From Salminus brasiliensis (lineage: Eukaryota; Chordata; Actinopteri; Characiformes; Bryconidae), in the NCBI RefSeq assembly GCF_030463535.1, contig NC_132893.1:23912782-23976781 (forward strand): a stretch of 64,000 nt of DNA, written 5' to 3'. A program made the position numbers and the translations under genes. Of this stretch, positions 30,326 through 61,888 are shown one piece after another. The first letter of the stretch is position 1. The number at the start of each line of letters is the position of its first letter. The notes below the pieces were generated by a model. It saw only the letters and a list, made by a program, of their open reading frames with translations, did not search any database and was not told where the DNA came from.

Positions 30326-32240
<1,915 letters not shown>

Positions 32241-56514: not shown

Positions 56515-57465
56515 GCACACTCACTCAGGTCCGCGCGTGGGCGCCAAGCGCGGGTTCCACACCATTACGCCCGAGCCGCAGAGGGTGTGTACGCGTGCGG
56601 AGGGGGGCTTAGTCGTCCCCACAACGATCATTTGTTTCGTTTCATCTCGTGGGAGGAAAAGAGTCCTTTTATGCGCGCGCTGTCTGTTATGGCTCCTCCA
56701 TTAGGCTGCTTTGTACTTCGATGCATTAATGCACGATTCAATGTTTTTTTTTTTTGGGGGGGGGGGGGGGGGGTCCATAATAAAGGTCTACCTGTCCTTC
56801 TTCTGCGCGAGTGGTACAGTTTTAGTGTTTTAATAATAAGAACAGAACCCCCCCCCAACCCCTCCCAACCCCCGTGAAGCCACTCACTGCATACCGGTGT
56901 CCACTGCTACGCACCGAGCCAAGGGGCCTGTCTTAGGTGGATTTGAGAGGAGGTAAAGGGTTGGGGGGCTTCGACGCTGGTGGCTCTCACTATAGGAGGA
57001 TTTTGAAGGAGGGCACTGTGTTTGGGGGGGGGTTTACTGGACCTCCAAATGGCCTCTAATTCAGCAAGACTAACAAGAGGCTCATAAGAGACCAGAGGTC
57101 TTACTTATGTAGAGGTCACTTAGAGGTCCTGTAGAAACCTACCCTACCCTTCAAATAGTTCCAAAAAGAACCACGCGTGAGTGAGAGGAACCTTTCATTT
57201 GCTAAAGAACATTTACCTCAAGAAAAGGTTCCTCAAACCTTTAAAAGGTCCGACCTCAAGCAGCCTTCGCAGCGCGTGCTTGTTAGCCTACATGACCAGA
57301 AGCGCGGCTGATTGTACCGCGCCTTCATTAGAAGATCAGAACCACGGCTGATTAGAGCGCGCTCAACTCTACAGGCCCGTGATTGGATCACTAAAGCGCA
57401 CTGGTGTTTCGGGAAGCCGCCGTGACGCATGCGGCGTTTTCAGAAATCGAAATTAGATTTCCATA

Positions 57466-57498
<33 letters not shown>

Positions 57499-58260
57499 TC
57501 GTGGCTTGCAGGAGGGGCTTCAATATTCGCGCTGAGACTGATCCAATTAAACAAATCATAAAGTGAGATTGGTGGAGGTGGTGGGGGCCCGGATTCCACG
57601 CAGTGCTTTCCAGTTAGGTCCAGAATATTTATGATGAATTTCTAACCCCGTACATGGGGCAGAGAGGGAGGAGGGGGAGGGGGGGGGGCAATTGTCTCTT
57701 AAAATTGGGTAATTTACACACGCGCGCACGCACTCTCATAGGACGAGACTAAAGGCTGCCAGCAACCACTTCACCCCCACCCGATTTAGGATGCATGTAG
57801 AAGAATTGATCCAGATCACTCCTGACACAGGCCGTAAATAAGTGCAGGAGATGCGCGAGGGGGAATCACGGGGAGACAAAAGGAGCTCGGGCGCAATGGA
57901 GCGTCACGGTGGCCCCAGCCGCCCGCGTCCTCTCCGGCTGGGTTCGAGCATCTGCCCCTCCTGCCTTCCGATTCCTCCATCGCATCCCATGTCTCCTTCC
58001 TCGCCCTCTTGCTTCCAGATTCACGAGGCTCGAACGGGAATTCTGTAACGGGGCTGGGGAAGATGGGGCGGTGTGTGTGTGTGTGTGTGTGTGTGTGTTG
58101 GGGGGGAGGGGGTACGTCGCTTTAAATGCGAGCGGGTTCGTGCTTCGCGCCGCGGCTCTTAATGGAGAGGCCCGTTTCATTCATGCCGTTTCCGTTCATT
58201 CATCAGAGCGGCGGAGCGCGAGAGCGACGCACGAAATTCTTATCAATGAAGAGGATGACG
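55900..58260. other. GC-rich island upstream of vgf
   Basis: Repeated CpG, GCGC and CACGCG words make this the most GC-rich part of the window. It contains CT/CA/CG compound repeats at 56456-56512, a T-run plus G-run at 56743-56773, a 'TTCCAAAAAGAACC' repeat at 57140-57245, (ATG)n at 57465-57498, G-rich 57660-57690 and (GT)n at 58071-58099. No exon is convincing. It may include distal vgf regulatory sequence. Confidence 0.5.
57465..57498. repeat. (ATG)n trinucleotide repeat
   Basis: Eleven ATG units in a row between CCATA and TCGTGG. No open frame of interest uses it. Confidence 0.9.
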
Positions 58261-58263
58261 TCA
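58256..58263. promoter_or_regulatory. vgf: cAMP response element of vgf
   Basis: TGACGTCA is the full palindromic CRE bound by CREB/ATF. Mammalian VGF promoters are known to depend on such a site about 70-80 bases before the transcription start. Here it lies 65 bases before a TATA-like TACATATT (58321-58328) and near an E-box CACGTG at 58301-58306, consistent with the same role. Confidence 0.8.
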
Positions 58264-58320
58264 AACGCGCCGCGAGGCTTTTTCTCCCCCCTCCTCGCGT
58301 CACGTGGCCAGGAGCGCCGG

Positions 58321-58633
58321 TACATATTGGCGCTGCGCTGTCCGCGGTGCTGAACCGCAAAAAAACCCCAAAAACACACAAAAACCAACACAGCATCACG
58401 CGCCGCGCGTTCATGTGCAGCTCACAAACGACCTATTTCACATGTGCCCGAAAGAGCGAATCGTGAACCAAAGCAGGTGTGCGTTTTTTCGGGGGGGGGA
58501 AGAAACTTTTTTTCTTCTTCAGTTCTGAATGAAATTAAGGAGCGAGAGCAGCGCTTGAAGTTCACGCGTTTAGACACGAAGAGGCACACAGACGCGCTTC
58601 GGAGTTCCTGGCTGATTTCTTGCGGGATAGCAG
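58321..58633 (+). promoter_or_regulatory. vgf: vgf core promoter and non-coding exon 1
   Basis: A TATA-like TACATATT at 58321 predicts a start near 58350. The exon would end at GATAGCAG|GTGAGTGG (58633/58634), a consensus donor. It pairs with the acceptor GTCTCTTCTAG ending at 59988, giving a 1355-bp intron. The exon has no start codon in a good frame. A non-coding leader with the whole protein in a later exon is the known layout of mammalian VGF. Confidence 0.65.
58335..58354 (-). promoter_or_regulatory. vgf: RE1/NRSE silencer element of vgf
   Basis: The minus strand reads TTCAGCACCGCGGACAGCGC, which matches the REST/NRSF consensus at all its conserved positions. It lies just after the TATA-like word and would overlap the expected transcription start. 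REST keeps neuronal and neuroendocrine genes off in other tissues, and VGF belongs to that gene class. Confidence 0.85.
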
Positions 58634-59988
58634 GTGAGTGGAGACTCCACGGTTCTCTTCAAAACACCCTAAAAACGGTGAAGTATTAGAGCAGACTGGA
58701 CGTTTTGCAGAATACTGCTTTAACGTTGAGGCTGATGTGAAGGTTCTCAGCTGAGGAGTCGGTTTTCCAAGACACGGACTGAGGCTAATGCTCGACTAGA
58801 AAGAAAAAAGAGACTTTGACTGGATCTGCACTAATGCAGAGTAGGCTGTTCTAGTCTAAGACCTGGCTTTACCTGAAGGAAAGTGGTCTATCTTTGCTGA
58901 ACATCTGCAGCACCAAAGACTAGCGGGAGAACGCGAGAAGCCTGCAGCCTACATTCAGTTCCATTCCGGAGCAGAACTTCGCAATTTTTATTGGTGTGAA
59001 GCAGAATTCACTGACATTCTCGATGCCACTGCTCTGTCCTGTATCAGGAGTTAGGCTGGTGTATCCTGCATCATTTTGAGTTCATTGCAGACTGAACAGA
59101 CAAACACAGAAGGGACCATTTCCTGCGTAAAACCACCCATTCATGCGCTACGGTTCTGATTTCGCTTTTTAATGACCCTAATCCTGACAGACATACCTTT
59201 GGAGCCCAAACCGACTGTCTTTCCAACTATTCCTCGAAAATGAAGCATGTAAAGAGCGCACTGGATTCTACTGGGCTTTTATAGAGAGTAGCCTATAGAG
59301 AGTATGAGGAATATAGACTAGGTGCAAGCTGATCTGAAGGGAAGAGGATGCGCGCAATAGTCCCACTAGATCACCATTTCTCCATCTACGGTATAACGGC
59401 ACGGTATATCGTATTTGTTGAATTAGCCAATCTCGCAATAATCGGATCAAGGTGTGAAATCTGTCTTAGAAAAGTTCTATTCCGAGGAAAATGTTACAGT
59501 GCAGTGCAACACAGTGCAGGCATAGGAAGACTGGGCGCAAGGTAATTAGAAGGCGCACTGCAACTGCAGCTAGAGATCGGCTATTAACTCTGTCCTCCGC
59601 TTTTTGTGGAGCAGTGCAACCGGTTTGGGAATTCAGACGTGTTTATAATTTTATACGGTGTATTTATGTGTCATTTGTACAGACTTGACTTTCCTAAAAG
59701 TATCATAAGATGGAAATACCATCCCTAATTTACCATCTTCAATAATACAAATTACTTTACCACTTTAATAATTTAGGGTTGGTCCCTCAGACAAGCCTAG
59801 TCTTGGACTACATTATTTTTTTTGACAGATAATCTAAATCAGAATTCTGTGCAGTCAAGGCTAAATCTAGGCTTAATCCATGTCCAGGAAACTGACCCCT
59901 AATGTCAAGAGTTAATAATGACCAAGACCTATATTTTAAAGAGGTCATGGGTGTCAACACTTTCTGTTGTGGTTTTTGTCTCTTCTAG
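58634..59988 (+). other. vgf: vgf 5' UTR intron
   Basis: Bounded by GTGAGT and TCTTCTAG. It contains a 'CCTGGACACAGATT' type repeat in inverted form at 59770-59903. Small frames (up to 65 codons) here have no support. Confidence 0.6.
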
Positions 59989-60037
59989 GTGCTTGCCCTG
60001 TCCCCCTCTCCCCCTGGCCGTATCCGGTCTGCTCTGC

Positions 60038-61888
60038 ATGGTCATGATCTGCTGCCATACTTCCTCCAGTACCTCTGCTCTATTGCTAATCCTGCTCAGC
60101 ATTGCCCCACAGCTGTCCACTGCTGCCCCGCTGCTTACTGAGAGTCCTCTCACCCGCACCAGCAATGAGACGCTCCAGCTGGTGCACCAGGACCTGGCCA
60201 CGGCAGACGGAGCAGCCAGGACACACAGAAGGGTGGATAGGGTTTTCCAGTCACCCACAGGACAGGGCCACCTCACAGACATGGATTCTGCGAGGGCACT
60301 AGCTTCTGTCCTGCTGGAGGCTCTCGACCACCCAGCCAGAGAAAAGATAGGTAGCCGGATGGAGACAGAGGAGTTTGTGAGGATGGAGCCAGGGAAGGAG
60401 CTGGAGATGTGGAGGGATCAGGATGAACACAGGGAAAGAATGGAAGAGGAGGAGAACATAAAGACGTTACAGTCTGGAGTCACTGAGTCTACTGTGAGCG
60501 AGGGGAAGGGAGGAGAAGAAAAGGTAGGATTAACAGAGGCACGACTTTCTGGTGAGAATGAAAAGGGAAATGACGCAATCACATTTGAGGGAAAGGAAGA
60601 GCTTCTGCAGAGCTTACTCAGTAAGAAAACCGAAGTTCCACCTCAACTCGCCACCTCCCTTCAGCGTAAAACCAGGGGCTATTTCCAAAACATTGACCTT
60701 GGTCTGCAGGACAATGAGATCCTCCCACCTCTGAAGGGTTACAAAGCCTATAACCAGCAGCTGGCCATGGCCAGCAAGAAGCTCAAGTGGCAGGAAGAGA
60801 GAGAGAGAAACCCTTCCCAGCTCGACAGGAACTTCATGGATGATTTCGACTTCATTGAGGAGGAGGAGGAGGTCCTCCCCCGTGAGGAAGAAGAGGCGAG
60901 GGCACGAGCTGAGCAGGAAGAGGTGCGGAGGCAGGAGGCAGAGGCACAGGAGGCGCGTGAAGAGGAGCAGAGATTGGCAGACATCGCTTCGGACATGCTT
61001 CTGCAGTACATGGGCAGAAAACAGAAAGCAGCCTCATACATGAAAGACATGAAGAAAGCTTCGCTGCTCAACAACGTGGCTGAGGACAAACGCTCGAATG
61101 AAGTGGAGGACAGTGATGACGATGAAATGGACCCCGAGACCATTGACAAGCTGATCGAAATCTCCAGTAAGCTGCACCTACCTGCTGATGACGTGGTCGA
61201 GATCATCACAGATGTGGAAGAGAAGAAGAAGAGGAAGGACTCACCCCCCGTTAATGCTCCTCGTTTCCGTCCTTTAGTCCCCCTCAAAGCCAAGCAAAGG
61301 GCTCCTGCTTATCAATACCCCAAGTCCCCAAAGAAATCTGCCCACAAGGTGAACCCATATAAGAAATGGTACAAGGAGAAAAGCAAAGCCAAGTTCAACA
61401 AGCAGGACTACTGGTTTAAACCACAGAAGCAGTTACTAGCATATCCTTCCTTTCCTTATTACCAGAAGCCATATCGAGCCTATTACCCTGTTTACTTCCC
61501 ACCTCCCGAACCGCGCTTCTACACAAATCCTGCCCTCTCTTTTGACTACAACTTTGGGGGCTCCATGGGTTACGGATTCAAGCCCCCCAAGCGCAGATAC
61601 AGGGACAGGGCCAAGACAAGGGAGCGAAACTGGGCACAGGGGGCACGTCAGCCTCAGAGCCCCTTCCCTTTAGTGGACACAGTAATTTCTAACTACATCC
61701 TCCCTCATCCCCGAACTTACCAGACCCTCCCTGTGCCCAAACCCCGTTCTCCCCCTCAGAGTGCAGCAGCACCCAACTACTTTTTCCACCCAGACTATGC
61801 GTACGATGAGCCAGAGCCAGTGCCAGACAGCGATGATGAGCTGGAGAACTTCATCGAGAAGATTTACTACAACCGCAGGTTGTTTTAG
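60038..61888 (+). CDS. vgf: Neurosecretory protein VGF precursor
   Basis: 616 aa, compared with about 615-617 in mammals, all in one exon opened by the acceptor at 59988. The ATG at 60038 begins a signal peptide (core SALLLILLSIA, predicted cut after A30). An upstream in-frame ATG at 59918 lies in the intron. Family signatures: ARALASVLLEALDHPA (85-100); an acidic block (273-310); RLADIASDMLLQYM (312-325); EDKR (349-352); DDEMDPETIDKLIEISSKLH (361-380) followed by LPADDVVEIITDVEEKKKRK. VGF is sorted to dense-core granules of neurons and endocrine cells and cut at basic sites into bioactive peptides. Dibasic sites include 64-65, 196-197, 210-211, 247-248, 297-298, 339-340, 351-352, 396-400, 432-433, 442-443, 518-520 and 613-614. 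SNYILPHPRTYQTLP (551-565) is the counterpart of the mammalian TLQP start. The C-terminus DDELENFIEKIYYNRRLF matches ELENYIEHVLLRRP. Unusual: a Tyr/Pro/Lys-rich segment at about 426-515. Confidence 0.96.
   Translation: MVMICCHTSSSTSALLLILLSIAPQLSTAAPLLTESPLTRTSNETLQLVHQDLATADGAARTHRRVDRVFQSPTGQGHLTDMDSARALASVLLEALDHPAREKIGSRMETEEFVRMEPGKELEMWRDQDEHRERMEEEENIKTLQSGVTESTVSEGKGGEEKVGLTEARLSGENEKGNDAITFEGKEELLQSLLSKKTEVPPQLATSLQRKTRGYFQNIDLGLQDNEILPPLKGYKAYNQQLAMASKKLKWQEERERNPSQLDRNFMDDFDFIEEEEEVLPREEEEARARAEQEEVRRQEAEAQEAREEEQRLADIASDMLLQYMGRKQKAASYMKDMKKASLLNNVAEDKRSNEVEDSDDDEMDPETIDKLIEISSKLHLPADDVVEIITDVEEKKKRKDSPPVNAPRFRPLVPLKAKQRAPAYQYPKSPKKSAHKVNPYKKWYKEKSKAKFNKQDYWFKPQKQLLAYPSFPYYQKPYRAYYPVYFPPPEPRFYTNPALSFDYNFGGSMGYGFKPPKRRYRDRAKTRERNWAQGARQPQSPFPLVDTVISNYILPHPRTYQTLPVPKPRSPPQSAAAPNYFFHPDYAYDEPEPVPDSDDELENFIEKIYYNRRLF

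Follow-up and report, generated by a model that had tools for sequence, protein, structure and literature searches.

The promoter described here, which lies in the analysed stretch of 64 kb of DNA (the window), quite probably comprises the core and proximal promoter regions of one of the two vgf copies in this fish, with activation by CREB and bHLH-zip factors and repression by REST over the transcription start. The CRE, the E-box, the silencer and repression by REST have already been reported for VGF in mammals. What appears to be new is the retention of the CRE/E-box/RE1 layout in both fish copies, together with their reciprocal strengths: the window copy combines a perfect RE1 with a broken TATA, and the copy on chromosome C9 combines a consensus TATA with a weakened RE1.

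The predicted REST site (RE1/NRSE, TTCAGCACCGCGGACAGCGC) occupies positions 58335–58354 of the minus strand. Compared with the consensus TTCAGCACCNNGGACAGCGC(C), it agrees at all 18 fixed positions of the 20-mer and has a single mismatch in the 21-mer, where the base after the 20-mer is A and not C. An earlier reading of the letters alone (the sequence-only reading) had called this site near-canonical and unlikely to occur by chance, and both statements are confirmed. When the whole window was shuffled 100 times, the expected number of RE1s was 0 even at a tolerance of three mismatches, and after 1000 shuffles of the promoter piece no match had fewer than four mismatches, against the one observed in the 21-mer. 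Across the 1.07-Gb genome, the exact pattern (20-mer, 18 fixed bases) occurs 81 times and its reversed control 0 times, while a relaxed pattern, with the exact sites included, occurs 226 times against 0 for the control. Since, in addition, the REST zinc finger family PF24540 (zf-C2H2_REST) has one match in the genome above the cut-off (2.1e-16), this genome has a predicted REST as well as an over-represented set of predicted RE1s, and the vgf site is among the exact ones. Ten of the 81 exact sites lie in CpG-island-like DNA, and the vgf RE1 has the highest CpG observed/expected ratio among them (1.35).

No further RE1 with up to five mismatches was found in the window, in the piece holding the second vgf copy (L011) or in L012. 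A search for half-site pairs allowed at most one mismatch in the left half and two in the right. In the window it returned a register variant of the RE1 itself and, at 58906, a single weak pair; L011, L012 and L023–L026 gave no pair, the RE1-like site of the second copy failing this stricter test. Elsewhere in the genome, the 100 of 226 places listed for the relaxed pattern include clusters of RE1-type sites, with four in 185 bp (C4:3073938-3074122, L036), three in about 410 bp (C3:1818142-1818553) and three in about 3.9 kb (C1:92630998-92634841). Two exact RE1s also stand about 30 bp apart on opposite strands at C12:3449233 and 3449265 (L059).

The perfect CRE claimed for 58256–58263 is present on the plus strand (TGACGTCA) as the only one in the window, and it lies inside a 10-mer (ATGACGTCAA, 58255–58264) that recurs identically at L011:3356. 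Because at least one CRE appears in 46 of 100 window shuffles (0.67 expected) but in only 0.46% of cases when the 300-bp promoter piece is shuffled 5000 times, the element is unremarkable over 64 kb and notable only by its location, less than about 200 bp from the predicted start and conserved in the second copy. A CRE in both vgf copies was obtained in none of 5000 paired shuffles. The E-box CACGTG is likewise where it had been placed (58301–58306, plus strand), within the 10-mer GTCACGTGGC (58299–58308) that is identical at L011:3385. This word is by itself weak evidence, occurring 11 times in the window and in 9.9% of the 5000 shuffles of the promoter piece.

The TATA-like word proposed at 58321–58328 proved right in position and wanting in quality. 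Its sequence, TACATATT, is a poor TATA, with a degraded slot reading CATATT (58323–58328, plus strand) and with last bases that double as an inverted CCAAT (ATTGG, 58326–58330). TATAWA was not found on the plus strand between 57700 and 58700, and at the place expected of a TATA promoter, about 30 bp 5' of the start, the window copy reads CATATT and the second copy TATAAA. The slot aligns without gaps to that true TATAAA at L011:3411 (TATAAAGG).

The second copy, one of two vgf matches in the genome, lies on a different chromosome (C9), and its protein is identical to that of the window copy at 272 of 574 aligned residues. Two copies are consistent with the teleost duplication. Two vgf genes are likewise reported in the available passages on a cichlid (VGF1 and VGF2; PMC4992253) and on zebrafish (vgf and si:dkey-175g6.2; PMC12190319). 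These passages do not deal with the promoters. The two promoters share a common order of blocks, namely TTTCATTCAT, CCGTTCATTCATC, TTCTTATCAATG, ATGACGTCAA, GTCACGTGGC, the TATA slot, GGCG and the RE1 or RE1-like site. In the second copy the latter is TTCAGCACCCTGGTCAACTCC (L011:3422-3442), with the left half TTCAGCACC intact and three mismatches in the right half. No gap interrupts the alignment of the copies between the start of the TATA slot and the end of the RE1, and the distance from the slot to the gene-proximal end of the RE1 is 31 bp in both, whereas the distance from the CRE to the E-box is unequal (45 bp in the window, 30 bp in the second copy). Local alignment of the two promoters scores 130; the highest score among 1000 shuffles is 62. 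When 20 tiles over 57000–60049 are aligned, the two at 58050–58399 score 69 and 89.5, and the other 18 score between 31.5 and 53. Searched as DNA against the whole genome, the 191-bp window promoter matched only itself, so the similarity must be block-wise and not continuous. The sequence-only reading had proposed that the CRE and RE1 are conserved; in the second vgf copy, where this was tested, the CRE, the E-box, the TATA slot and an RE1-like site are, at the level of sequence, kept in order.

Three further blocks, all 5' of the CRE and on the plus strand, are letter-identical in both copies: TTTCATTCAT at 58175–58184 (L011:3259), CCGTTCATTCATC at 58192–58204 (L011:3276), which occurs once in the window on both strands taken together, and TTCTTATCAATG at 58237–58248 (L011:3337). 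The last of these contains TGATAA on the minus strand, which we take to be GATA-like.

The assignment of the downstream gene to vgf, made at first from the letters only, is supported by database matches and by synteny. For the open reading frame 3' of the promoter, the best PDB match is the chain 'Neurosecretory protein VGF' (7d13), and the same chain is the best match for the second copy; both matches are weak (E 0.0084 and 0.001, respectively), and no Pfam family exceeds the cut-off for the protein of either copy. The predicted coding sequence (60044–61888, plus strand) encodes 614 amino acids. Two in-frame ATGs lie six bases apart at 60038 and 60044, and the latter is the likelier start because the second copy carries only that ATG, with ACG at the other position. 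Upstream of it, a non-coding exon 1 is predicted at 58352–58633 on the plus strand, its start being set from the TATA slot and its donor being GCAG/GTGAGT after 58633, which aligns with GTAAGT in the second copy. It would be followed by a 5'-UTR intron (GTGAGT...TCTTCTAG, 58634–59988, plus strand) with the acceptor before 59989. The donor, the acceptor and the non-coding status of exon 1 were read by eye and not by a splice predictor, and a similar exon/intron layout was read in the same way in the second copy (L011 3659-5909).

On the upstream side, exons resembling histidine N-acetyltransferase (30544–32237, plus strand) form a syntenic neighbor in the same orientation as vgf. Its last exon (31671–32237) matches Pfam Hisat_C at 2.1e-38, and the piece at 30544–30810 returned no family in the Pfam search. 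Similar acetyltransferase exons stand 5' of the second vgf copy in three pieces with 41–52% identity; the remaining rows of this neighbor search were vgf itself or repeat-like. The neighbor is presumably NAT16-like, and human NAT16 is, on our assumption, adjacent to VGF. The locus accordingly holds what would be expected of a vgf gene: a precursor that matches VGF, a non-coding first exon and a conserved neighbor.

Transcription directed by a TATA box starts about 30 bp downstream of it. A start near 58350, as originally predicted, is backed at the sequence level by the TATAAA at the aligned position in the second copy, and it would fall at about 58352; the absence of a good TATA from the window copy is a point against this model of the promoter. 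Given this rule and the 31-bp spacing, the RE1 would span about -20 to +1 in both copies. CREB-family factors bound to the CRE, about 95 bp 5' of the predicted start, would confer responsiveness to activity and cAMP, to which a bHLH-zip factor on CACGTG would contribute. REST is present in non-neural cells and progenitors and, where present, would occupy the RE1, which fills the interval of about -20 to +1 separating TATA slot and start, silence vgf through the recruitment of corepressors and possibly also shut out the initiation complex, the direct block that the sequence-only reading had proposed. In this scheme we infer the occupancy by factors, the exact start, the direction of effect and the steric blocking.

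It is conceivable, though we hold it doubtful, that REST does use the RE1 but transcription starts mainly at another place, such as a point further 3' in exon 1, with ATTGG serving as a CCAAT box and REST acting through chromatin only. This alternative departs from the preferred explanation in the position of the start alone, and the confidences attached to the explanations do not sum to one. REST is effective at many distances, TACATATT makes a weak TATA, and ATTGG reads as an inverted CCAAT, an element that, in the passages available on the mammalian gene, matters for NGF induction (PMC4313783). It has to be set against a second copy that holds a consensus TATAAA in the slot, keeps the 31-bp spacing to the RE1 and does not conserve ATTGG (TATAAAGG).

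That only the left half of the RE1 matters, together with the CRE and E-box, the perfect right half in the window being a product of lineage chance or drift, is unlikely. The second copy does retain TTCAGCACC and differs at three positions of the right half, and in a hand count of 100 of 226 places listed for the relaxed pattern, T stands at position 14 in six and A at position 17 in two, the second vgf copy belonging to both sets. Opposed to this, the excess of the relaxed pattern over its control (226 to 0) shows a two-half element to be selected genome-wide, and the window RE1 matches at 18 of 18 fixed positions. A chance gathering of functionless motif words is most improbable and already disfavored by the conserved order of blocks between the copies, for even with CACGTG as common as 11 per window and 0.67 CREs expected, no RE1 is expected in 100 shuffles and no paired shuffle of 5000 yields a CRE in both copies.

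For each of the 81 exact RE1 sites, the flanking 300 bp in both directions were inspected. One of the 81, that of vgf, has a perfect CRE in this range, compared with a shuffle mean of 0.4; since 68 of 200 shuffle sets reach at least one, CRE-RE1 pairing is not a genome-wide rule, and selection is not thereby shown. A general CRE-RE1 module is therefore not supported for perfect RE1 sites. No enrichment was found around the 81 sites for CRE, half-CRE, CACGTG, TATA, CCAAT or GC box. A general class of RE1s lying over TATAWA-predicted starts was not supported either (0 of 81; shuffle mean 1.9), a test in which the window copy fails through its degraded TATA and which the C9 copy passes while lying outside the 81.

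Among known systems, the neuronal promoters of CHRNB2 and AVP are repressed by REST and have an RE1 that covers the start. The RE1 of fish vgf similarly overlaps the core promoter, but unlike those of CHRNB2 and AVP it is accompanied, within 100 bp, by a full CRE as well as an E-box, and the combination is retained in two gene copies. The mammalian VGF promoter, as far as the available passages describe it, resembles that of the window in having a CRE, a CACGTG close to the start, a neuronal-gene type of silencer and reported repression by REST (PMC4313783, PMC5099284, PMC10605157). Mutations in its CRE abolish the responses to NGF and cAMP (PMC4313783). The differences lie in the silencer, reported some 400 bp 5' of the start in mammals (PMC4313783) and lying at the predicted start in the fish copy; in the CRE, which belongs to a 14-bp palindrome in mammals and is palindromic only over its 8-bp core in fish; and in the CCAAT box, which mammalian VGF possesses (PMC4313783) and for which the fish copy offers no more than a possible alternative reading of its TATA slot.

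The part of the literature available on REST and VGF points mainly to repression. Vgf is among the genes near REST-bound regions that lose H3K27me3 without REST in mouse ES cells (PMC4371837), VGF is inhibited by REST in NMB cells (PMC10605157, citing Moon 2015) and rises upon REST knock-down (PMC11071216), and antisense oligonucleotides directed at REST splicing derepress Vgf among other genes (PMC5661251). Contrary reports in the passages available are that VGF is unchanged in PC12 cells with high REST (PMC4639699) and that two REST-VGF correlations listed for neuroblastoma, 0.018 and -0.106, are not significant (PMC4139778). In zebrafish carrying a Timothy-syndrome CaV1.2 mutation, both vgf and its paralogue are reported to be up, which would indirectly support control of fish vgf by activity (PMC12190319). 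In the open-licence literature searched, no fish vgf promoter was seen described and no mammalian VGF promoter sequence was found, and the titles listed on teleost RE1s include neither a vgf paper nor an RE1 census.

On the preferred explanation, both inputs of mammalian VGF, activity through the CRE and neuronal restriction through REST, would be indicated in both fish vgf copies, with the REST site placed on the presumed start point. The opposite strengths of the copies allow a further, tentative proposal, namely that an ancestral start module of TATA and RE1 was split reciprocally after duplication, with CRE and E-box kept by both copies and with REST and the initiation complex competing for the same DNA. 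This reading rests on two sequences and is inseparable from drift; the competition is suggested because the RE1 fills the gap between TATA and start, at a 31-bp spacing fixed in both copies. If it is true, the window copy would be tightly silenced with a low basal level and the C9 copy leakier and stronger, so that the two should differ in leakiness and induction. The pair may therefore offer a natural experiment on the steric action of REST at transcription starts and on the subfunctionalization of promoters after gene duplication.
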